Both the position numbers and the translations under genes were made by a program. This document shows positions 2,726 through 43,941 of a stretch of DNA of 64,000 nt, piece by piece. The notes beneath the pieces were generated by a model. That model saw only the letters and a list, made by a program, of their open reading frames with translations, had not been told where the DNA came from and made no database searches. Within the stretch, counting starts at the first letter, position 1. The number at the start of each line of letters is the position of its first letter. The DNA is from Sodalis-like secondary symbiont of Drepanosiphum platanoidis. GTDB lineage: Bacteria; Pseudomonadota; Gammaproteobacteria; Enterobacterales; Enterobacteriaceae. The DNA lies in NCBI RefSeq assembly GCF_964059955.1, contig NZ_OZ060924.1:186001-250000 (forward strand), in the 5' to 3' direction.

Positions 2726-3802
2726 ATGTGTAAAATTTTAAATTTAGTTAAACCAGGTGTAATTTCAGGAAATGATGTTCAAACAATATTTAATTTTGCA
2801 AAAAAAAATAAATTTGCTTTACCTGCAATTAATTGTATAGGTATTGATTCAATTAATGCTGTATTAGAAACAGCTAAAAAAATGCAATCTCCAGTTATTA
2901 TACAATTTTCATATGGAGGATCTTCATTTATTTCTGGTTTAGGTTTAAATAATAAACAACATAAATCATCTATATTAGGTGCTATTTCAGGAGCATTTCA
3001 TGTACATAATATAGCAAAATATTATGGAATACCAGTAATACTTCATACTGATCATTGTGATAAGAATATGCTTCCATGGATTGATTCATTAATTATTGAA
3101 GGTGAAAAACATTATTTTTCTACAGGAAAACCACTTTTTTCTTCTCATATGATAGATCTTTCTAAAGAAACAATTGAAAATAATATTAAAATTAGTGCAA
3201 AATATTTATCTCGTTTAAGTCAGATAGATATGACTTTAGAAATAGAATTAGGATGTACTGGAGGTGAAGAAGATGGAATTGATAATATAAATATTTCAAG
3301 ATCTTTACTTTATACTCACCCAAAAGATGTTGCTTATGCATATAAAAAATTAAATAATATTAGTTCAAATCTTATTATAGCTGCATCATTTGGTAATATA
3401 CATGGAGTATATAAACCAGGAAATGTTAAACTAACCCCTAAAATTTTAAAAAAATCTCAAAAATATATTTCTAAAAAATTTAATCTTCCAAATAATTCTC
3501 TTAATTTAGTTTTTCATGGAGGATCTGGTACAAAATTAAAAGAAATTCAAGAATCTTTAAAATATGGAATAATTAAAATAAATTTTGATACAGATATTCA
3601 ATGGGCTACTTTTAAAGGTGTTAAAAAATATTTTAAAAAAAATCATAAATTTTTAAAAAATCAATTAGGAAATCCTTTTGGAAATAATAATCCAAATAAA
3701 AAATATTATGATCCACGTGTATGGTTAAGAGAAGGTCAAATTTCATTAAAAAAATATTTAGAAAAAATATTTAAAAATCTTAATTCAATTAATGTTTTAT
3801 AA
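2726..3802 (+). CDS. fbaA: Class II fructose-bisphosphate aldolase
   Basis: FbaA cleaves fructose 1,6-bisphosphate (or makes it) with a zinc ion. The 358 residues match E. coli's 359. The HTDHCDKN segment places the catalytic Asp109 and zinc ligand His110 at E. coli numbering. Later zinc-ligand regions NIHGVY (about 225) and FHGGSGT (about 264) are present, as is NFDTDIQWA. The ATG has AAAGGAATG upstream and the N-terminus matches E. coli MSKIFDFVKPG. It lies second in the pgk-fbaA-mscS cluster. A glycolysis set with pgk, eno and PDH is present in this window. Confidence 0.98.
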   Translation: MCKILNLVKPGVISGNDVQTIFNFAKKNKFALPAINCIGIDSINAVLETAKKMQSPVIIQFSYGGSSFISGLGLNNKQHKSSILGAISGAFHVHNIAKYYGIPVILHTDHCDKNMLPWIDSLIIEGEKHYFSTGKPLFSSHMIDLSKETIENNIKISAKYLSRLSQIDMTLEIELGCTGGEEDGIDNINISRSLLYTHPKDVAYAYKKLNNISSNLIIAASFGNIHGVYKPGNVKLTPKILKKSQKYISKKFNLPNNSLNLVFHGGSGTKLKEIQESLKYGIIKINFDTDIQWATFKGVKKYFKKNHKFLKNQLGNPFGNNNPNKKYYDPRVWLREGQISLKKYLEKIFKNLNSINVL

Positions 3803-4075
3803 AAAAAATTTATTTTATTATTAAAAATAAATTTATTTTATATAAAAAAATATATATAATTAATTTTTTTTTAAAATTTTTATAAAAAATTTTAAAAAAT
3901 TAATTTATATAAAAATATATTTTAATTTTTAAAGATTATTTTTTTATGAAAATATTATAATAATTAAATATAAAATTTTTTATTTTAAAAAAATAAAAAT
4001 TTATTAAAATAATTTATATATAAAATAAAAAATTATTTTTATAAAAATATTATATATTTATAATTAAATAATTTA

Positions 4076-4939
4076 ATGAGTAAAATAAATGTGAAAAAAT
4101 TAAGTGTAATTAATGAAATTAATCATGTTAGTAATTGGCTTACAGGACATCAACAATTATTAATTCAATATGTTATAAATATGATTATTGCAATTATTAT
4201 ACTTTTTTCTGGAATATTTCTTTCAAAAATTATTTCAAGATCATTAAATAAAGTAATGAAATCAAGAAATATAGATATAACAGTTACAAATTTTATTTCT
4301 ACAATTTTTCATTATGGTAGTCTTATTTTTACTATTATTGCATTTTTAAATTGTTTAGGAGTTCAAACTTCTTCAATAATTGCAGTTATAGGAGCTGCTG
4401 GTTTAGCTGTAGGATTAGCATTACAAGGATCTTTATCAAATTTTGCTGCTGGTGTTTTACTTGTTACATTTCGTCATTTTCATGCTGGAGATTATGTTGA
4501 TTTTGGAGGTACATCTGGTACAGTAATGGTTGTACAATTATTTTCAACTACTTTAAGAACTTATGATGGAAAAATTATTATTGTTCCTAACAGTAAAATT
4601 ATTTCTGGTAATATTACAAATTTTTTTGCAGAACCTAATAGATTATTAGATATAACAATTAGTGTTAATTATAACACTGATTTTAATTTAATTAAAAAAG
4701 TAGTTAATAATCTTTTATTAAAAGATACAAGAATAATTAAAGAAATGGGAACCACAGTAAGATTAAGTGGATTAAGACCTACATCTATTGATTTTATAAT
4801 AAGAGCTTGGGTTCCTAGAAATGAATTACAAAATGCAAAATTTGATTTATTAGAAAATATTAAAATATCTTTAGATATTCATAAAATTGGTATTATATAT
4901 CCATCAATAAATATATCTCTTACAAAAGATTCTAAATAA
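4076..4939 (+). CDS. mscS: Small-conductance mechanosensitive channel
   Basis: MscS is a homoheptameric inner-membrane channel that opens under membrane tension and releases solutes on osmotic downshock. The 287 residues match E. coli's 286. Three membrane segments are seen at about 28-50, 68-90 and 96-127; the third carries the Gly/Ala-rich pore helix GAAGLAVGLALQGSLSN with the pore leucines. The beta domain (EYVD-like DYVDFGG, then RTYDGKIIIVPN) and the C-terminal alpha/beta domain follow. No Shine-Dalgarno sequence is visible. It keeps its E. coli place after fbaA. Retention suggests that the cell still meets osmotic stress, perhaps during transmission; that part is inference. Confidence 0.95.
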   Translation: MSKINVKKLSVINEINHVSNWLTGHQQLLIQYVINMIIAIIILFSGIFLSKIISRSLNKVMKSRNIDITVTNFISTIFHYGSLIFTIIAFLNCLGVQTSSIIAVIGAAGLAVGLALQGSLSNFAAGVLLVTFRHFHAGDYVDFGGTSGTVMVVQLFSTTLRTYDGKIIIVPNSKIISGNITNFFAEPNRLLDITISVNYNTDFNLIKKVVNNLLLKDTRIIKEMGTTVRLSGLRPTSIDFIIRAWVPRNELQNAKFDLLENIKISLDIHKIGIIYPSINISLTKDSK

Positions 4940-5056
4940 TTTTATTTATAAAATGTAAATTATTATGAATTTATTAATTTTATTAAAATATTAAAGAATT
5001 AAATATTTTTAATTAAAATTATATATAAAATGTAAATAATTAATTAATAAAATTTT

Positions 5057-6691
5057 ATGATAAATAAAAATAAAAAAATTTTAGTAACATGTGCTTTACC
5101 ATATGCTAATGGACCTATTCATTTAGGTCATATGCTTGAACATATTCAAGCAGATATATGGGTTAGATATCAGAGAATGCAAGGAAATATAGTATATTTT
5201 ATTTGTGCTGATGATGCACATGGAACACCTATTATGATTAAAGCAAAAAAATTAAAAATAAATATTGAATCTATGATTAAAAAAATAAATAAAGAACATA
5301 AAAAAGATTTTTTAAAATTTAATATTAGTTATAATAATTATTATTCAACTCATAGTAAAGAAAATCTTGTTTTATGTAATTTAATTTTTAATAGATTAAG
5401 AAAAAAAAAATTAATTAATATTAAAAATATTTCTCAATTATATGATAAAAAAATATCAATTTTTTTACCTGATAGATATGTTAAAGGAACTTGTCCTAAA
5501 TGTTTTTCTATTAATCAATATGGAGATAATTGTGAAATTTGTAGTGCTGTTTATGATTCAATTAATTTAATTAATCCAAAATCAATATTATCTAATTCAA
5601 TACCAATTATTAGAAATTCTAAACATTTCTTTTTTAATTTACCAAAAATGAAAAATTTTTTATATAAATGGATAAATTCTAATAATTTACAAAAAGAAGT
5701 AATTAATAAAATAAAAGAATGGTTTATTTCTGGATTAAAATCTTGGGATATCTCTAGAGATGATCCTTATTTTGGATTTGAAATACCAGGAACAATAAAA
5801 AAATATTTTTATGTATGGTTAGATGCACCAATTGGATATATGGGAACATTTAAAAATTTATGTAATAAAGAGAAAAATATTAAATTTAAAGATTTTTGGA
5901 ATAAAGATTCAAAAAATGAAATATATCATTTTATTGGAAAAGATATAATTTATTTTCATTGTTTATTTTGGCCTGCTTTATTAAAAGGAAGTAATTTTAA
6001 AACTCCAACAAATTTATTTGTTCATGGTTATTTAACAATAAATGGAAAAAAAATGTCTAAATCAAAAGGTACTTTTATAAAAGCAAGTACTTATTTAGTA
6101 CATTTAGATCCTGATTATTTAAGATATTATTTTGCATCAAAATTATCTTCAAAAATTAATGATATTGATTTTAATGTAAAAAATTTTGTTGAATGTATAA
6201 ATGTTCATATAATTAATAAAATTGTTAATCTTGCTTCAAGATGTTCTAAATTTATTGAAAAAGAATTTTCTTGTTATCTTTCAAATGAATTAAGTGATCC
6301 AATTTTATATGATTTTTTTATTAATTCATCATATGATGTAAAAAGATTATTTAATTCTAGAGAATTTAGTTCTGTAATAAAAAAAGTAATAGAATTATCA
6401 GATATTGCTAATAAATATATTGATGAAAAAAAACCATGGATATTAAAAAATAAAAAAAATAAAAAAAAATTACAAAATGTTTGTTCTATGGGTATTAATT
6501 TTTTTAAAGTTTTAATGATTTATTTAAAACCTATAGTTCCATCTTTATCAATACGAGTAGAAAAATTTTTAAATATAGAATTATCATGGAATAATATTAA
6601 AAATCCATTATTTAATCATAAAATTAAACCTTTTAAATTTTTAATGAATAGATTATCTATAAGTCAAGTTAATAAAATAATTAATAATTAA
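5057..6691 (+). CDS. metG: Methionyl-tRNA synthetase, C-terminally shortened
   Basis: MetG charges methionine to initiator and elongator tRNAs. The class I motifs are intact: HLGH at 22-25 and KMSKS near 333. A zinc knuckle with Cys146, Cys149, Cys159 and Cys162 is present. The protein is 544 residues against 677 in E. coli: the C-terminal OB-fold domain that dimerises the enzyme and binds tRNA is absent. The end falls almost exactly where the well-studied monomeric, active E. coli fragment (about 547-551 residues) ends, so a working monomer is likely. No Shine-Dalgarno sequence. An A10 run (5401-5410) lies in frame. It could not be a pseudogene on visible evidence, since no stop or frameshift interrupts the core. 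Confidence 0.95.
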   Translation: MINKNKKILVTCALPYANGPIHLGHMLEHIQADIWVRYQRMQGNIVYFICADDAHGTPIMIKAKKLKINIESMIKKINKEHKKDFLKFNISYNNYYSTHSKENLVLCNLIFNRLRKKKLINIKNISQLYDKKISIFLPDRYVKGTCPKCFSINQYGDNCEICSAVYDSINLINPKSILSNSIPIIRNSKHFFFNLPKMKNFLYKWINSNNLQKEVINKIKEWFISGLKSWDISRDDPYFGFEIPGTIKKYFYVWLDAPIGYMGTFKNLCNKEKNIKFKDFWNKDSKNEIYHFIGKDIIYFHCLFWPALLKGSNFKTPTNLFVHGYLTINGKKMSKSKGTFIKASTYLVHLDPDYLRYYFASKLSSKINDIDFNVKNFVECINVHIINKIVNLASRCSKFIEKEFSCYLSNELSDPILYDFFINSSYDVKRLFNSREFSSVIKKVIELSDIANKYIDEKKPWILKNKKNKKKLQNVCSMGINFFKVLMIYLKPIVPSLSIRVEKFLNIELSWNNIKNPLFNHKIKPFKFLMNRLSISQVNKIINN

Positions 6692-6855
6692 TTTTTTTAT
6701 TTTAATTTTTTTAATTAAATTTATAATATTTTAATATTTGTATAAATATATAAAATTTTTATAAAATAAAAAATCAAACAATAATTATATTAAAATTTAA
6801 AATAAATTATATTTATAATATATTAAAAATATAAAATAAAAATTTTTAATAAAAT

Positions 6856-6919
6856 TTATTTAATATATTATAATTAATAATAAATTGTTATTTATTATTA
6901 ATTATAATATATTAAATAA
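6856..6919. repeat. Perfect inverted repeat, 30-bp arms, 4-base loop
   Basis: The arm 6856-6885 is the exact reverse complement of 6890-6919, with the loop TGTT at 6886-6889. It sits between metG and rpsL. In RNA it would be a very long AU hairpin; in DNA it could extrude as a cruciform. There is no T-tract directly after it, and it overlaps the best rpsL promoter candidate, so a simple terminator role is not obvious. Confidence 0.85.
6885..6913 (+). promoter_or_regulatory. Candidate sigma-70 promoter of the rpsL-rpsG-fusA operon
   Basis: TTGTTA (6885-6890, four of six to TTGACA) is followed by a 17-base spacer and TATATT (6908-6913, five of six to TATAAT). Transcription would start about 45 bases before the rpsL ATG. 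The -35 lies on the hairpin loop of the 30-bp-arm inverted repeat and the -10 lies in its right arm. In such AT-rich DNA the -10 alone means little; the spacing and the TTG are the support. Confidence 0.4.
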
Positions 6920-6963
6920 TAATTAAATTAATTCATTTAAAAACATATAAGGATTTTCTTATT

Positions 6964-7338
6964 ATGACAACTGTAAATCAACTTGTAAGAAAACCTCGTA
7001 AAACAAAAATTATTAAAAGTAATGTATCAGCTTTAGGTAAATGTCCTCAAAAAAGAGGTGTTTGTATTAAAGTTTATACAACTACACCAAAAAAACCAAA
7101 CTCTGCTTTAAGAAAAGTTTGTCGTGTTCGTTTAACAAATGGATTTGAAGTAACATCTTATATTGGAGGAGAAGGACATAATTTACAAGAACATTCTGTT
7201 GTATTAATTAGAGGTGGTAGAGTTAAAGATTTACCAGGAGTTAGATATCATACAATTAGAGGTGCATTAGATTGTTCTGGAGTTAAAGATAGAAAAAATG
7301 GACGTTCTAAATATGGAGTTAAAAAACAAAAAACTTAA
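6964..7338 (+). CDS. rpsL: 30S ribosomal protein S12
   Basis: S12 lies at the decoding centre of the small subunit and helps control accuracy. The 124 residues equal the E. coli length. [13 protein letters not shown] keeps Lys at the position altered in streptomycin-resistant mutants, and [13 protein letters not shown] is also wild type, so no resistance change is seen. AAGGA lies 10-14 bases upstream of the ATG. It heads the str operon, followed by rpsG after 96 bases and fusA after 74 more. Confidence 0.98.
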
Positions 7339-7434
7339 TTTAAATTATTATTTAATAATATTAAGATTTTAATATATTAATTTTTTTTAAAATTAACATA
7401 TAATCATCTATATTTTAATAAATGGAGATTATAT

Positions 7435-7905
7435 ATGCCTAGACGTCGAATTATTAGTCAAAGAAAAATATTACCAGATCCAAAATTTGGTTCAGAGATT
7501 TTATCTAAATTTATTAATATTCTTATGATTAATGGAAAAAAATCTATTGCAGAATTTATTACATATAATGCATTAGATTTTCTTATTAAAAAATCTAAAA
7601 AAAATCATTTAGAATCTTTTGAAACTGCTCTTGAAAATGTTCGTCCAATAGTTGAAGTTAAATCTAGAAGAGTTGGAGGATCTACATATCAAGTACCAGT
7701 AGAAGTTAGATTAGTAAGAAGAAATGCTTTAGCTATGAGATGGATCATATATGCTGCTAGAAAAAGATCTGATAAATCAATGTCTCTTCGTCTTGCTAAT
7801 GAATTATATGATGCTATAAAAAATAAAGGATTGGCTGTTAAAAAAAGAGAAGATGTTCATAAAATGGCAGAAGCTAATAAAGCATTTGCACATTATAGAT
7901 GGTAA
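7435..7905 (+). CDS. rpsG: 30S ribosomal protein S7
   Basis: S7 nucleates assembly of the 30S head and touches the E site. The 156 residues equal the short (non-K-12) E. coli form. [10 protein letters not shown] at the start, the [19 protein letters not shown] core and the [11 protein letters not shown] segment are all present. GGAG lies 7 bases before the ATG. Second gene of the str operon. Confidence 0.98.
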
Positions 7906-7979
7906 CATATTTAAATTTATATATTTTATATATAAAAATTTAATATTTTTTTTGAATAAAATTTAAATAGAGGGTATAA

Positions 7980-10082
7980 ATGTCTCGAATCACACCTATT
8001 GTTCGATACCGAAATATTGGAATTAGTGCTCATATTGATGCTGGAAAAACAACTACTACAGAAAGAATTCTTTTTTATACTGGGGTAAATCATAAAATAG
8101 GTGAAGTTCATCATGGATTAGCTACTATGGATTGGATGGAACAAGAACAAGAACGTGGAATAACTATAACTTCTGCAGCTACTACTTGTTTTTGGTCTGG
8201 TATGTCAAATCAATTTAATAAATATAGAATTAATATTATTGATACTCCTGGACATGTAGATTTTACTATTGAAGTAGAAAGATCTATGTCTATATTAGAT
8301 GGTGTAGTTATGGTGTATTGTGCAGTAGGTGGAGTTCAACCTCAATCTGAAACTGTATGGAGACAAGCAAATAAATATAATATACCTAGAATTGCTTTTA
8401 TAAATAAAATGGATCGTATTGGAGCAAATTATTTTAATGTAATAAAACAATTAAAAAATCGTTTATTATCTAATCCTGTTGCAATTCAAATACCAATAGG
8501 TTCTGAAGATAAATTTGTAGGAATAATTGATTTAATCAAAATGAAAGCAATTTATTGGAATAAAAAAGATCAAGGACTTACATTTTCATATGATGAAATT
8601 CCAAATCATTTAATAAATTTATCTAAAAAATGGCATCAATATATAATTGAATCTGCAGCAGAATCATCAGAAAAATTAATGGATAAATATTTAAATAATG
8701 AAATTTTAACTGAAAAAGAAATAAAAAATGGATTAAGAAAACTTGTATTAAATAATAAAATTATTCTAGTAACTTGTGGTTCTGCTTTTAAAAATAAAGG
8801 AATTCAATCTATGCTTGACGCAGTTATTGAATATTTACCATCTCCAATAGATATACCTCCAATACAAGGAATATCTAAAGATAAAAAAACACCTATAAAA
8901 AGATTATCTGATGATAAAGAACCATTTTCTGCATTAGTATTTAAAATAGCATCAGATCCTTTCGTAGGAAATTTAACTTTTTTTCGTGTATATTCAGGTG
9001 TAATAAAATCTGGAGATAAAATTATTAATGCAATAAAAGAAAAAAAAGAAAGATTTGGTAGAATTGTACAAATGCATGCTAATAAAAGAGATGAAATAAA
9101 AGAAGTTAGAGCTGGAGATATTGCTGCTGCAATAGGATTAAAAGATGTTACTACTGGAGATACATTATGTGATCCTAATGCATATATTATATTAGAATCA
9201 ATGGATTTTCCAGAACCTGTTATATCTGTTTCTGTTGAACCAAAAACAAAAGTTGATCAAGAAAAAATGAGTTTATCTTTAAATAGATTAGCTCAAGAAG
9301 ATCCTTCATTTAAAGTTTGGACAGATATTGAATCTGGACAAACAATTATTGCTGGAATGGGAGAATTACATCTTGAAATATTAATTGATCGTATGAAAAG
9401 AGAATTTAATGTAGAAGCAAATGTAGGAAAACCACAAGTAGCTTATAGAGAAACAATAAGAAATTCAATTGAAAATGAAGGTAAATTTATTCGTCAATCT
9501 GGAGGTAGAGGACAATACGGACATATTTGGTTACGTATTGAACCAATAGAACCTGGTGGAAATGGATATGAATTTGTAAATAAAATTGTTGGAGGAGTAG
9601 TTCCTAAAGAATATATTCCAGCTATAGAAAAAGGAATAAAAGATCAACTTAAAAGTGGAGTTTTAGCTGGATATCCAATAGTTGATGTTAGAGTATCAGC
9701 TTTTGATGGATCTTATCATGAAGTAGATTCTTCAGAAATAGCATTTAAAATAGCTGCTTCTATAGCTTTTAGAGAAGGTTTTATGAAAGCAAATCCAGTT
9801 ATTTTAGAACCTATTATGAGTGTAGAAGTAGAAACCCCTGAACGTTATATGGGTGATGTTATCGGAGATTTAAATCGTAGAAGAGGAATTATTGATGGAA
9901 TGGAAGATATACCTACAGGAAAAAAAATTCGTTCTAAAGTTCCATTATCTGAAATGTTTGGATATGCAACAGATTTAAGATCTCAAACTCAAGGAAGAGC
10001 ATCTTATTCTATGGAATTTTTAAAGTATAATGAAGCACCTAAAAATATTTCACAAAATATTATAGATAATAAAAAAATATAA
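7980..10082 (+). CDS. fusA: Translation elongation factor G
   Basis: EF-G is the GTPase that drives translocation and, with RRF, recycles ribosomes. The 700 residues compare with 704 in E. coli. The GTPase motifs are G1 AHIDAGKT (17-24), G3 DTPGHVD and G4 NKMD; domain II, III, the domain IV segment [11 protein letters not shown] and the C-terminal domain follow without gaps. GAGGG at 7970-7974 is a strong ribosome binding site. tufA, next in the E. coli str operon, is missing: dnaN follows after 79 bases, a junction created by rearrangement or deletion. Confidence 0.98.
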
Positions 10083-10161
10083 ATAAAATTTTTTATTAAA
10101 ATTTAAATTTATATTTAAAATTTATTTTAATTTTTACTTATTAAGTTTTATATTAAATAAA

Positions 10162-11262
10162 ATGAAATTTATTATTCAAAGAGAATTAATATTAAAACCT
10201 TTACAAAAAATTAGTAATATTATATCAGGAAAAAATTTTCTTCCAATATTAAATAATGTTCTTATAAAAGTAAAAAAAAAATATATAAAATTAATAAGAA
10301 CAAATTTAGAAATAGAAATTATTATAAAAATAATTTCTTGTAAAATATATAAATCTGGAACAACTACAGTTCTTGCACGTAAATTTTTTGATATTTGTCG
10401 TAGTTTTCCAGAGTTATCAATAATTAATATTGAAATAAAAAATTTACGTTTAATTATTTCTTCTAATAAAACAAAATTTTATCTTTCTATAACATCAGAA
10501 AATAATTTTCCTAAATTAGAAATTTATACTTATGATTTACAATTTTTTATTCCTATAAATTTATTAAAAAATTTAATTAAATCCACTCAATTTTCAATGT
10601 CAAAAAATGATATACGATATTATTTAAATGGAATGTTATTTGAATTTTCTAAAAATAAAATAAAAAGTGTTACAACAGATGGTCATAGATTATCTATAAG
10701 TAATATGTTTATAGAAGGAATTAAATTTAATAAATCTATTATAATACCAAGAGATAGTATTAAAGAATTAATGAAATTTTTAGATAATAAAAAAGATTTT
10801 TTAAATATAAAGATTAGTAATAATAATATTTTTTTTAAAATAGGAAATTATAGTTTGATTTCTAAATTAATTGAAGGAATATATCCTGATTATAAAAATA
10901 TATGTTTAAAACAATATGATAATTTTTTACAAGCTGATTGTAATAAGTTATATGAAGCAATTTCAAGAGTATCACTTCTTTCTAATGAAAAATTCAAAGG
11001 AATTAGATTATATATAAGTAAAAATCAAATAAAAATTACTGCAAATAATTCTTCACATGAAGAAGCAGAAGAATTTTTAAATATTTTATATGAAGGAAAT
11101 AATATAGAAATTTGTTTTAATGCTATATATATTTTAGATGTTTTAAATATATTAAAATGTGATAAAATAAAGTTATTATTTAATAATAATTTTTCTGGTA
11201 TACAAATTGAAAATTTTTTAAATAAAGGTTCTATATATATTCTCATGCCTATGCATTTATAA
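10162..11262 (+). CDS. dnaN: DNA polymerase III beta sliding clamp
   Basis: The beta clamp is a homodimeric ring that tethers polymerase III to DNA. The 366 residues equal the E. coli length; three clamp domains can be followed, with VTTDGHRLS in the middle and the C-terminal LMPMHL matching the family ending VMPMRL. The sequence is more diverged and more Lys/Asn/Ile-rich than neighbours such as fusA. No Shine-Dalgarno sequence. In E. coli it lies between dnaA and recF; both are absent here, with fusA upstream and a 315-base gap then gyrB downstream. Confidence 0.95.
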   Translation: MKFIIQRELILKPLQKISNIISGKNFLPILNNVLIKVKKKYIKLIRTNLEIEIIIKIISCKIYKSGTTTVLARKFFDICRSFPELSIINIEIKNLRLIISSNKTKFYLSITSENNFPKLEIYTYDLQFFIPINLLKNLIKSTQFSMSKNDIRYYLNGMLFEFSKNKIKSVTTDGHRLSISNMFIEGIKFNKSIIIPRDSIKELMKFLDNKKDFLNIKISNNNIFFKIGNYSLISKLIEGIYPDYKNICLKQYDNFLQADCNKLYEAISRVSLLSNEKFKGIRLYISKNQIKITANNSSHEEAEEFLNILYEGNNIEICFNAIYILDVLNILKCDKIKLLFNNNFSGIQIENFLNKGSIYILMPMHL

Positions 11263-40386: not shown

Positions 40387-42210
40387 TTATATATTATATT
40401 TAATAAATAATTTTTTTATTTTTTCTTTAATACTAAAATAATTTAAACCTAATAATGAATAAATTTCATTTTTATTTCCTTGAGGTATAAAGTAGTCTGG
40501 AAATCCTATATTTAATATAGGAATATTAATATGATTTTTTATTAAACATTCATTTACCGCACTACCAGCTCCACCTATTAATGAATTTTCTTCTAAAGTA
40601 AGAAAAGATTTATGATTTTTAGATAATTCAATAATTAATTTTTTATCTAAAGGTTTTATAAATCTCATATCTACTAATGTTAAATTTAATTTATTAGAAA
40701 TTTTTTTAGCTTCATTAAATAAAGATCCAAAATTAAGTATAGCCATTTTATTATTTCCTATTTTATGAATAATACCTTTACCAATAGGAATTTTTTTTAA
40801 AATTTTTAATTTTTTATTATTACAATATTTTTTTGGATATCTAACAATACTTGGACCATTTATAAAATTATAACTAGTATGTAACATAAATCTTAATTCA
40901 TTTTTATTACTAGGAGTCATAATGGTTAAATTAGGAATACATCTTAAAAAAGTTAAATCAAATGCTCCTTGATGAGTTTCTCCATCTTCTCCAACAACTC
41001 CTCCTCTATCAATTGCAAACAATATTTTTAAATTTTGTATGGCAACATCATGTATAATTTGATCATAAGCACGTTGTAAAAAAGTAGAATAAATAGAAAC
41101 TACTGGTTTATATCCACTAATAGATAAACCAGCCGCAAAAGTTACTGCATGTTGTTCAGCTATTGCAACATCAAAATATTGATTTGAAAATTTTTTTGAA
41201 AATTTTGATAATCCAGATCCTTCACACATTGCTGGAGTAATAACCATTAATTTTTTATCATTTTTAGCAATACTACATAACCACTCTCCAAAAATATCAG
41301 AATAACTAAATTTTATTTTAGATTTTTCATAAAAAGAATTATTTTTTATATTAAAGGAAGGAACAGAATGCCATTTTATTGGATTTTTTTCTGCAGGTTT
41401 ATATCCATGTCCTTTTTGTGTTATTATATGAAGTATTTTTGGACCTTTTTTATTTTTTATTTTATATAAAATATTAATTAAATCATTTATTTTATGTCCA
41501 TTAATTGGACCAAAATAATTAAATCCTAAATTTTCAAAAAATTTTTTTGGTGTTAAATTTTTTTTTATATTTTTTTTTAAAAAAAAATTATTATTAATAA
41601 TATTTTTATAATTTAAATGTAAAAATTTATCATTTAATGCACCAACATTATTTGAAATAGACATTTTATTATCATTTAATATAATTAAAATATTATTTTT
41701 TATACTACCAGCATGATTCATAGCTTCAAAAGCCATTCCTCCAGTTAAAGCTCCATCACCAATAATAGATATTATTTTTCTTTGTAAATTTTCATTTTCT
41801 GCTGCTACAGACATTCCTAAACCTGCACTAATAGATGTTGATGAATGTCCAACAGAAAATGAATCATATTTACTTTCTTTTATAGAAGGAAATGAATGTA
41901 AACCATTATATTTACGTATACTAAAAATTTTATCTCTACGATTAGTAAGTATTTTATGAGGATAAGCTTGATGTCCAATATCCCATATAATTTTATCAAA
42001 TGAAGTATTATATACATAATGTAAAGAAATTGTTAATTCTATTACTCCTAAACCTGAAGCTAAATGTCCACTAGAAATACTTACACTTTTTAATAAAAAT
42101 TTTCTTAATTCTTTACTTAAAGTTAAAAGATTTTTTTTAGATAATAAACGAAGTTTTACTGGATCTTTTGCTAAATATAAAATTGGATATTTTTTAAAAT
42201 TAAAATTCAT
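40387..42210 (-). CDS. dxs: 1-deoxy-D-xylulose-5-phosphate synthase
   Basis: DXS condenses pyruvate with glyceraldehyde 3-phosphate, using ThDP, to DXP. DXP feeds isoprenoids (through Dxr), thiamine thiazole and pyridoxal phosphate. The 607 residues compare with 620 in E. coli. [10 protein letters not shown] (catalytic His), [15 protein letters not shown] (ThDP), and the second-half [12 protein letters not shown] and [15 protein letters not shown] motifs are intact. As in E. coli it is divergent from thiI, but xseB and ispA between them are gone, and dxr and ispG are missing from their own E. coli positions in this window. That makes a vitamin role for DXP worth considering. Confidence 0.97.
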
Positions 42211-42523
42211 TTTATTTTCTTACATAAATATATTATTTTTATAAAATTTTTAATATATTATTTATTATTTAAATATATACATTTATTTAAATATTATTTA
42301 GTAATATATTTTAAATTTAAATTTATTAATTTAAATTTATTTTTATTTAAAATATAAAAAAATATGTTATTATTTATTAAATAATAAATTAAAAATATTT
42401 TTATAAAAATAAATATAATTATTAATTTAAAATATTTTTATAAAATTAATAATTTATTATATTATAAATATAATATATTTATAAATAAAAAAATAAATTT
42501 AAATTAATAAATTTTAAAAAATT
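42211..42523. other. dxs-thiI divergent gap, former xseB-ispA position
   Basis: In E. coli xseB and ispA lie here. The 313 bases hold no frame resembling either. Short AT inverted repeats are present (for example 12-bp arms at 42312-42323/42328-42339) and no clear promoter can be picked out. Confidence 0.5.
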
Positions 42524-42835
42524 ATGAAAAAAAATTTAAAAAATATTAAATTTTTATATAAAAAAGAAAATAATAAAATAAAAATAACAAATAAAATTTT
42601 ATCAAATAGTATTGTTTTAGATATAAGAACTGAAAAAGAACGAATTAAAAATCCTTTAAATTTAAATAAAAATATAATTAAATATTATTCTTTATATGAA
42701 ATTTCTAATAAATTTCATTTATTAAATCAAAATAAAAATTATCTTTTATATTGTACTTATGGATTAATAAGTAAATTACAAGCAATAATTTTATATGAAA
42801 AAGGTTATAAAAATATTAAAATATATAGACCTTGA
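42524..42835 (+). CDS. thiI: Stand-alone rhodanese domain of ThiI
   Basis: The 103 residues match only the C-terminal rhodanese domain of E. coli ThiI (482 residues): VLDIRT, LNQNKNYLLYC, SKLQAIILYEKGY and the exact C-terminus IKIYRP correspond to VLDIRS, LDQNKTWLL-C, SRLQALYL-EQG and VKVYRP. Cys77 lines up with the persulfide-carrying Cys456. The THUMP and PP-loop domains needed for tRNA 4-thiouridine are absent. The location, divergent from dxs, is that of E. coli thiI, so it is a 5'-truncated thiI. In Salmonella the rhodanese domain alone supports thiamine thiazole synthesis, so this may be a sulfur carrier for thiamine. An ATG is present, without Shine-Dalgarno. A decaying remnant cannot be excluded, but the frame is open and the catalytic Cys kept. 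Confidence 0.85.
   Translation: MKKNLKNIKFLYKKENNKIKITNKILSNSIVLDIRTEKERIKNPLNLNKNIIKYYSLYEISNKFHLLNQNKNYLLYCTYGLISKLQAIILYEKGYKNIKIYRP

Positions 42836-42915: not shown

Positions 42916-43941
<1,026 letters not shown>

Follow-up and report, generated by a model that had tools for sequence, protein, structure and literature searches.

A ThiI protein reduced to its rhodanese domain in a Sodalis-like symbiont, and the distribution of this form among small genomes of the family

A stand-alone rhodanese domain beside dxs

We analyzed a window of 64,000 nucleotides (17.5% G+C) from the Sodalis-like secondary symbiont of Drepanosiphum platanoidis, whose genome of 472,091 bases is assembled as two contigs, the chromosome C1 (459,102 bases) and a small contig, C2 (12,989 bases). 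Between 42,524 and 42,835 bp (forward strand) of the window lies an uninterrupted open reading frame of 103 codons, which starts with ATG, ends with TGA, and encodes a stand-alone ThiI C-terminal rhodanese domain. The TIGR04271 model (ThiI_C_thiazole) matches the protein with an E-value of 1.3e-25 and 89.4 bits (cut-off 70), with residues 6-103 aligned to positions 4-101 of the 101 in the model; judged by this alignment, the domain is complete. The general Pfam rhodanese model (PF00581) matches as well (E 4.2e-5; 24.4 bits, cut-off 22.2). Cys77, which corresponds to the persulfide cysteine of E. coli ThiI (Cys456), is encoded by a TGT codon at 42,752-42,754 (forward strand); it is part of a YC-x-x-G motif inside YLLYCTYGLISKLQ, where full-length relatives have their active-site loop (e.g., LLYCDRGVMSRLQ), and the protein ends in KIYRP, an ending found in many full-length ThiI relatives. 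The divergent neighbor is dxs (40,387-42,210, reverse strand; TIGR00204, 796.5 bits). The product of Dxs is a substrate of thiazole synthesis, and Dxs is itself a TPP enzyme. On the other side lies obgE (42,916-43,926). A sequence-only reading of this DNA had described an intact frame that matches just the end of ThiI, stops at the ThiI C-terminus, keeps the persulfide cysteine, and diverges from dxs; all of this is borne out, and at the level of sequence comparison the reduction of ThiI to its rhodanese domain is confirmed.

The same reading held that the THUMP and PP-loop half of the protein is gone, and our searches agree. The intergenic region between dxs and the domain (42,211-42,523; 1.6% G+C) contains no listed ORF of at least 90 aa and no match to the front half of ThiI, and when the N-terminal portions of 21 ThiI proteins of full length served as tblastn queries (E 0.01), no front-half remnant came up between 38,001 and 47,000 of the window. 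A PF02568 search of the whole genome found no full-length or second ThiI; its sole match scores 25 bits and lies in a frame of 367 aa that resembles MnmA, as judged by reading of the sequence. We infer that s4U8 was lost in this organism.

Could the ORF be an unrelated single-domain rhodanese, of the GlpE or PspE type, that lies beside dxs by chance? The match to the general Pfam model would fit such a protein, but we regard this origin as extremely improbable: the TIGR04271 score is above the ThiI-specific cut-off, while the matches below that cut-off in our surveys, mostly to other rhodaneses, score just about 19-42 bits; the C-terminal end is ThiI-like; and a stand-alone domain is also found near dxs in three other genomes (G007, G018, and G029).

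An alternative of more weight, which we nevertheless consider unlikely, is that the ORF is a decaying relic, the last unbroken part of a dead thiI, with sulfur reaching ThiS directly from IscS or from another donor. Among the 44 listed ORFs of at least 90 aa in the window, this one indeed ranks lowest in G+C. Its codon-position signal is nonetheless strong: G+C amounts to 16% at the first codon position, 17% at the second, and 1% at the third (positions 1 and 2 versus 3, Fisher p 6e-6), which is the pattern of a gene under protein-level constraint and the only lineage-specific evidence of constraint on this ORF. An open run of 105 codons would arise by chance with p of about 3e-6 (an independent-codon estimate at the base composition of non-ORF DNA). 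A scan of genome contigs with the protein returned one remote locus (36% identity, in a Cellvibrionales MAG), and a single-sequence AlphaFold model (pLDDT 47.7) was too poor for use. On the sequence evidence, the ORF is a real and minimal ThiI that probably functions.

Thiazole genes on a small contig and the sulfur donor

Contig C2 contains thiC, thiE, thiF, thiS, thiG, thiH, panB, and panC, with thiD on the opposite strand, and also a plasmid RepA of the IncFII type; genes of two B-vitamin pathways (thiCEFSGH, panB, panC, and thiD; L044, which is C2, at 2,869-10,970) are found together on one small RepA replicon. ThiG was identified by Pfam. ThiF falls short of the curated cut-offs set for its equivalog models in NCBIfam; its closest relative of solved structure is E. 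coli ThiF (E 2.4e-67), which outscores MoeB, and the five cysteines of the inspected block are kept. ThiS passes its cut-off narrowly (41.9 versus 37.45 bits) and has the C-terminal Gly-Gly. In PLSDB, a near search with the small contig gave two Erwinia haradaeae records (coverage 9% and 2%), and a distant search with the thi operon gave 68 records of many organisms (60-80%). Other parts of C2 have features of their own: the contig starts with a repeated 48-base unit that can be read as a repeated 16-aa peptide (L044:1-318), and a small PLD-like protein (L044:1,305-1,838) lies beside a region (L044:1,923-2,649) in which a dimethylargininase-like frame (2,089-2,649; PF19420, E 3e-33) follows and overlaps an unmatched 68-aa frame, as if one gene had been split.

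The sulfur donor is in the same genome, with iscS on the chromosome (C1:115,499-116,641; L054) and the thi genes on C2. The sequence-only reading had called for a genome search for thiC, thiF, thiS, thiG, thiH, and iscS, and would have been contradicted by a lack of thiazole-pathway genes or by a full-length thiI elsewhere; all of these genes, and thiE and thiD in addition, are in the genome and no other ThiI was found, so neither point speaks against it. Neither thiL (by profile search) nor thiamine pyrophosphokinase was found in the genome, so the encoded pathway would end at thiamine monophosphate (TMP). The same thiL search exceeded its cut-off in 18 of the 21 other genomes given (including G307, where the match has two stop codons); the remaining three are G061 (broken pieces), G187, and G318. 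Counted over the 16 genomes with a stand-alone domain (see below), thiL is over the cut-off in 13, the exceptions being the window genome (G000), G061, and G318. One possibility is that a host kinase supplies the TPP for Dxs. The organism presumably lives as an insect symbiont, and its insect host may use the thiamine product.

We think it very likely that the ORF is the remnant of a full-length ThiI that lost its NFLD/THUMP/PP-loop half and kept its role in thiazole synthesis, with sulfur moving from IscS through Cys77 to ThiS. Cys77 would take a persulfide, most likely from IscS; the sulfur would pass from Cys77 to ThiS activated by ThiF; the ThiS thiocarboxylate would feed ThiG, working with ThiH; and ThiE would join the thiazole with the pyrimidine made by ThiC and ThiD into TMP. 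This order is that of the established thiamine synthesis of E. coli. Because the protein keeps both the domain and the cysteine, a path from IscS to Cys77, ThiS, and ThiG would be the simplest mechanism, and from the sequence we infer that the domain transfers sulfur to ThiS.

The IscS protein itself has diverged. It falls below the TIGR02006 cut-off (521.9 versus 643.2 bits); it matches E. coli IscS with an E-value of 9e-145 and keeps Cys328, Lys206, His104, and Trp45, with an alignment that ends at residue 379 of 404, the C-terminal tail being unalignable. In E. coli, Cys456 of the ThiI rhodanese domain accepts sulfur from IscS, and IscS without residues 374-404 was reported to have its IscU binding abolished (PMC2854127). 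The genes flanking iscS read as tldD and hldE, and no iscU was recognized by reading of the frames of at least 40 aa within 1.5 kb on either side. All residues given in PMC2854127 as strong for ThiI binding are changed (R220K, R237N, M239V, and R340K), as are the weaker ones F89L, R116K, R223K, and E311I; only W45 and A327 are kept among the ThiI-binding residues, and E49 and D52, which matter for TusA according to the same source, are changed too. These changes can be read as speaking against a working contact between IscS and ThiI, or as a sign that IscS was trimmed together with the half of ThiI that was lost. Separately, L054 has an Asn-rich stretch where E. coli IscS has the GGGHERGMRSGT loop.

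The changes at E49 and D52 also suggest that another carrier might be wanted, and the domain could then mainly carry persulfide in a general way, for other thiolations of a sulfur network that has been pruned, with thiazole supply secondary. The genome does have, in addition to IscS, the MnmA-like protein and a second, SufS-like frame between genes read as sufD and sufE (these names, apart from IscS, given by reading). We hold such a role to be highly improbable, given the tie of the domain to ThiG across lineages; among the small genomes without intact ThiG, the stand-alone domain occurs only in G318.

Stand-alone ThiI domains across the family

To place the ORF among its relatives, we drew on a survey base of 295 genomes of the family, taken evenly from a larger group, and examined 100 of them: every matched genome up to about 2.0 Mb in size (40 genomes; sizes rounded) and all 60 unmatched genomes of any size (20 listed, 40 inferred from the numbering). 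The 40 matched genomes comprise 16 with a stand-alone domain (open frames of 82-138 aa, in nine genera), 16 with full-length ThiI (487-510 aa), three with broken copies (G158, G173, and G279), and five with weak rhodanese matches only, which are probably unrelated. Intact ThiG, defined as a full-length match with E below 1e-80, is present in 15 of the 16 genomes with the stand-alone domain, in two of the 16 with full-length ThiI (G139 and G243), and in four of the 68 others; for stand-alone against full-length, Fisher's test gives p 7e-6, the genomes not being independent. The domain is also tied to thiazole synthesis by position, since in G061 its gene lies within the thi cluster, 55 bp after thiH and followed by thiD. 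That a stand-alone ThiI domain goes with ThiG is a testable rule with known exceptions.

The exceptions are of two kinds. G318 has a stand-alone domain but a broken ThiG, with thiG on a 7-kb contig, and it also lacks a thiL match over the cut-off. Conversely, G013, G073, G118, and G214 have intact ThiG and no TIGR04271 match was found in them; because of these four genomes the ThiI domain is not strictly required, and therefore another sulfur donor is expected there. Some of the surveyed genomes can be given names: we take G234 and G307 to be Wigglesworthia glossinidia, G198 is presumably Baumannia, and G118 presumably Pantoea carbekii.

The survey bears on the relic alternative from both sides. 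G318 keeps its frame despite the broken ThiG and with thiL not found, and the four genomes that manage with ThiG and no ThiI rhodanese match would also suit a dispensable leftover. A standard start codon for the whole domain is found in 14 of the 16 genomes, G133 and G029 being the two without. In addition, dN/dS of the window ORF is 0.98 against G018 and 0.50 against G007, values that neither support nor exclude constraint. Set against this are the retention of the domain in 16 genomes of nine genera, with the persulfide cysteine in its YC-x-x-G motif in 16 of 16, and the dN/dS values within genera. As no congener of the window genome was in the sets searched, the latter were obtained in four other genera (NG86, domain codons only): all ten within-genus pairs give 0.14-0.44 (0.19-0.50 for whole frames), with synonymous sites near saturation in several of the pairs. 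For genera other than that of the window genome, these values and the retained cysteine agree with two checks proposed in the sequence-only reading, purifying selection and the cysteine in related symbionts. A neutral frame would stay free of stops by chance with a probability of 0.005-0.10 per within-genus pair, which is weak evidence alone. In G133 (L097, about 3,982-4,020), an ATG lies upstream but out of frame, with a run of ten A in between, and transcript slippage might provide the start there.

Further evidence against a relic comes from G029, the one genome out of the 16 stand-alone loci searched in which a remnant of the front half was found. This front half (42% identity over a 234-column match) is interrupted by stops and in a frame that differs from that of the rhodanese ORF, which is open; the latter has a GGAGAGGAG run just before an in-frame ATT, without a standard start, and the genome has intact ThiG. 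G029 suggests an intermediate in which the front half was lost first. The broken ThiI copy of G158 also comes with a front-half remnant. The sequence-only reading had proposed that selection removed the tRNA-thiolation half and kept the sulfur-transfer half. The pattern of loss and retention agrees with that proposal; active removal, on the other hand, accounts for the data no better than relaxed selection, which explains the loss of the front half equally well.

We also placed the stand-alone state on phylogenies of rpoB, a single gene with long AT-rich branches here. The 59 rpoB rows gave a quick tree of 51 (eight free-living or other-family rows left out) and a careful tree of 49 genomes (LG+C20 PMSF), which was also built without the long rows G187 and G073. 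We took full-length ThiI for the ancestral state, as it is the form present in the free-living relatives that the surveys covered. The stand-alone state requires eight changes on the tree (six to eight over the bootstrap trees); at least six are forced by supported branches, and a single change is seen in 0% of the bootstrap trees. On supported branches there are five independent pairs of stand-alone and full-length genomes, and ThiG changes in the same direction in an average of 4.6 of them and in the opposite direction in 0; the median p of 0.0625 is the floor for five pairs, so with only five this test cannot reach p 0.05.

A more speculative reading, which we hold to be possible though rather doubtful, joins this convergence to the state of IscS: ThiI would have been cut repeatedly (at least six times in the family, by rpoB), and IscS of the window genome would have been trimmed to match, as its unaligned tail, its changed ThiI-binding residues, the retained Trp45, and the lack of a recognizable iscU within 1.5 kb could indicate. 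If true, this would be a minimal sulfur wire from IscS to rhodanese to ThiS, and it would suggest that the changed IscS residues had served the lost half of ThiI.

Comparison with known systems

Trimming of ThiI to its rhodanese domain is already in print for a few insect symbionts, according to PMC10654098, and so is not new in kind. For the Arsenophonus of Ornithoica turdi, that source describes a 288-bp thiI with only the rhodanese domain, and two further symbionts with a rhodanese-only ThiI are cited there; by its table, G007 is presumably this Arsenophonus, and G204 presumably the one of Ceratovacuna japonica. The window genome resembles the former in its rhodanese-only ThiI, reduced genome, and retained thiamine genes, and the interpretation given there is the same as ours; it shows the features of the thiamine-making symbionts with such a ThiI in PMC10654098, with a pathway to TMP only. 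The two differ in arrangement: in G007 the domain has an IspA-like gene and dxs next to it, and thiL at a distance of some 3.5 kb, whereas the window genome has dxs and obgE as neighbors of the domain, its thi operon on the small RepA contig, and no thiL that our search could find. Wigglesworthia glossinidia, whose thiI is cited in the same source, is presumably represented by G234 and G307, which have stand-alone domains (frames of 104 and 118 aa), intact ThiG, and the cysteine; it is a different lineage from the window genome, apart from it on the rpoB tree. For G118, presumably Pantoea carbekii, no TIGR04271 match was found, which disagrees with a citation in PMC10654098.

The location of the thi genes has parallels too. 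They are plasmid-borne in Ca. Erwinia haradaeae, as in the window genome, and thiamine genes are on a symbiont plasmid in Ca. Benitsuchiphilus tojoi (PMC7218078). The Benitsuchiphilus plasmid is described there as having only thiS, thiF, and thiG, without thiH, unlike the window genome with its thiCEFSGH, thiD, panB, and panC.

What is new here is the breadth, with a stand-alone domain in 16 of 100 genomes of the family, in nine genera; among the open papers listed by our searches we found no broader survey of stand-alone ThiI, and saw the rhodanese-only form described in PMC10654098 alone. With the survey, single reports become a testable rule, the exceptions to which are useful as pointers to other sulfur routes. 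It also carries a warning for annotation: no thiI should be called a pseudogene automatically for having just 90-110 codons. In Salmonella enterica, the rhodanese domain alone suffices for synthesis of the thiamine thiazole (Martinez-Gomez et al., 2011, as cited in PMC10654098). There the result came from experiments, and the genome has full ThiI, whereas in the window genome the domain alone is the natural state. Such genomes would amount to a natural experiment on an enzyme with two functions: as tRNA thiolation goes and thiazole synthesis stays, the protein shrinks to the very domain that is sufficient in Salmonella.
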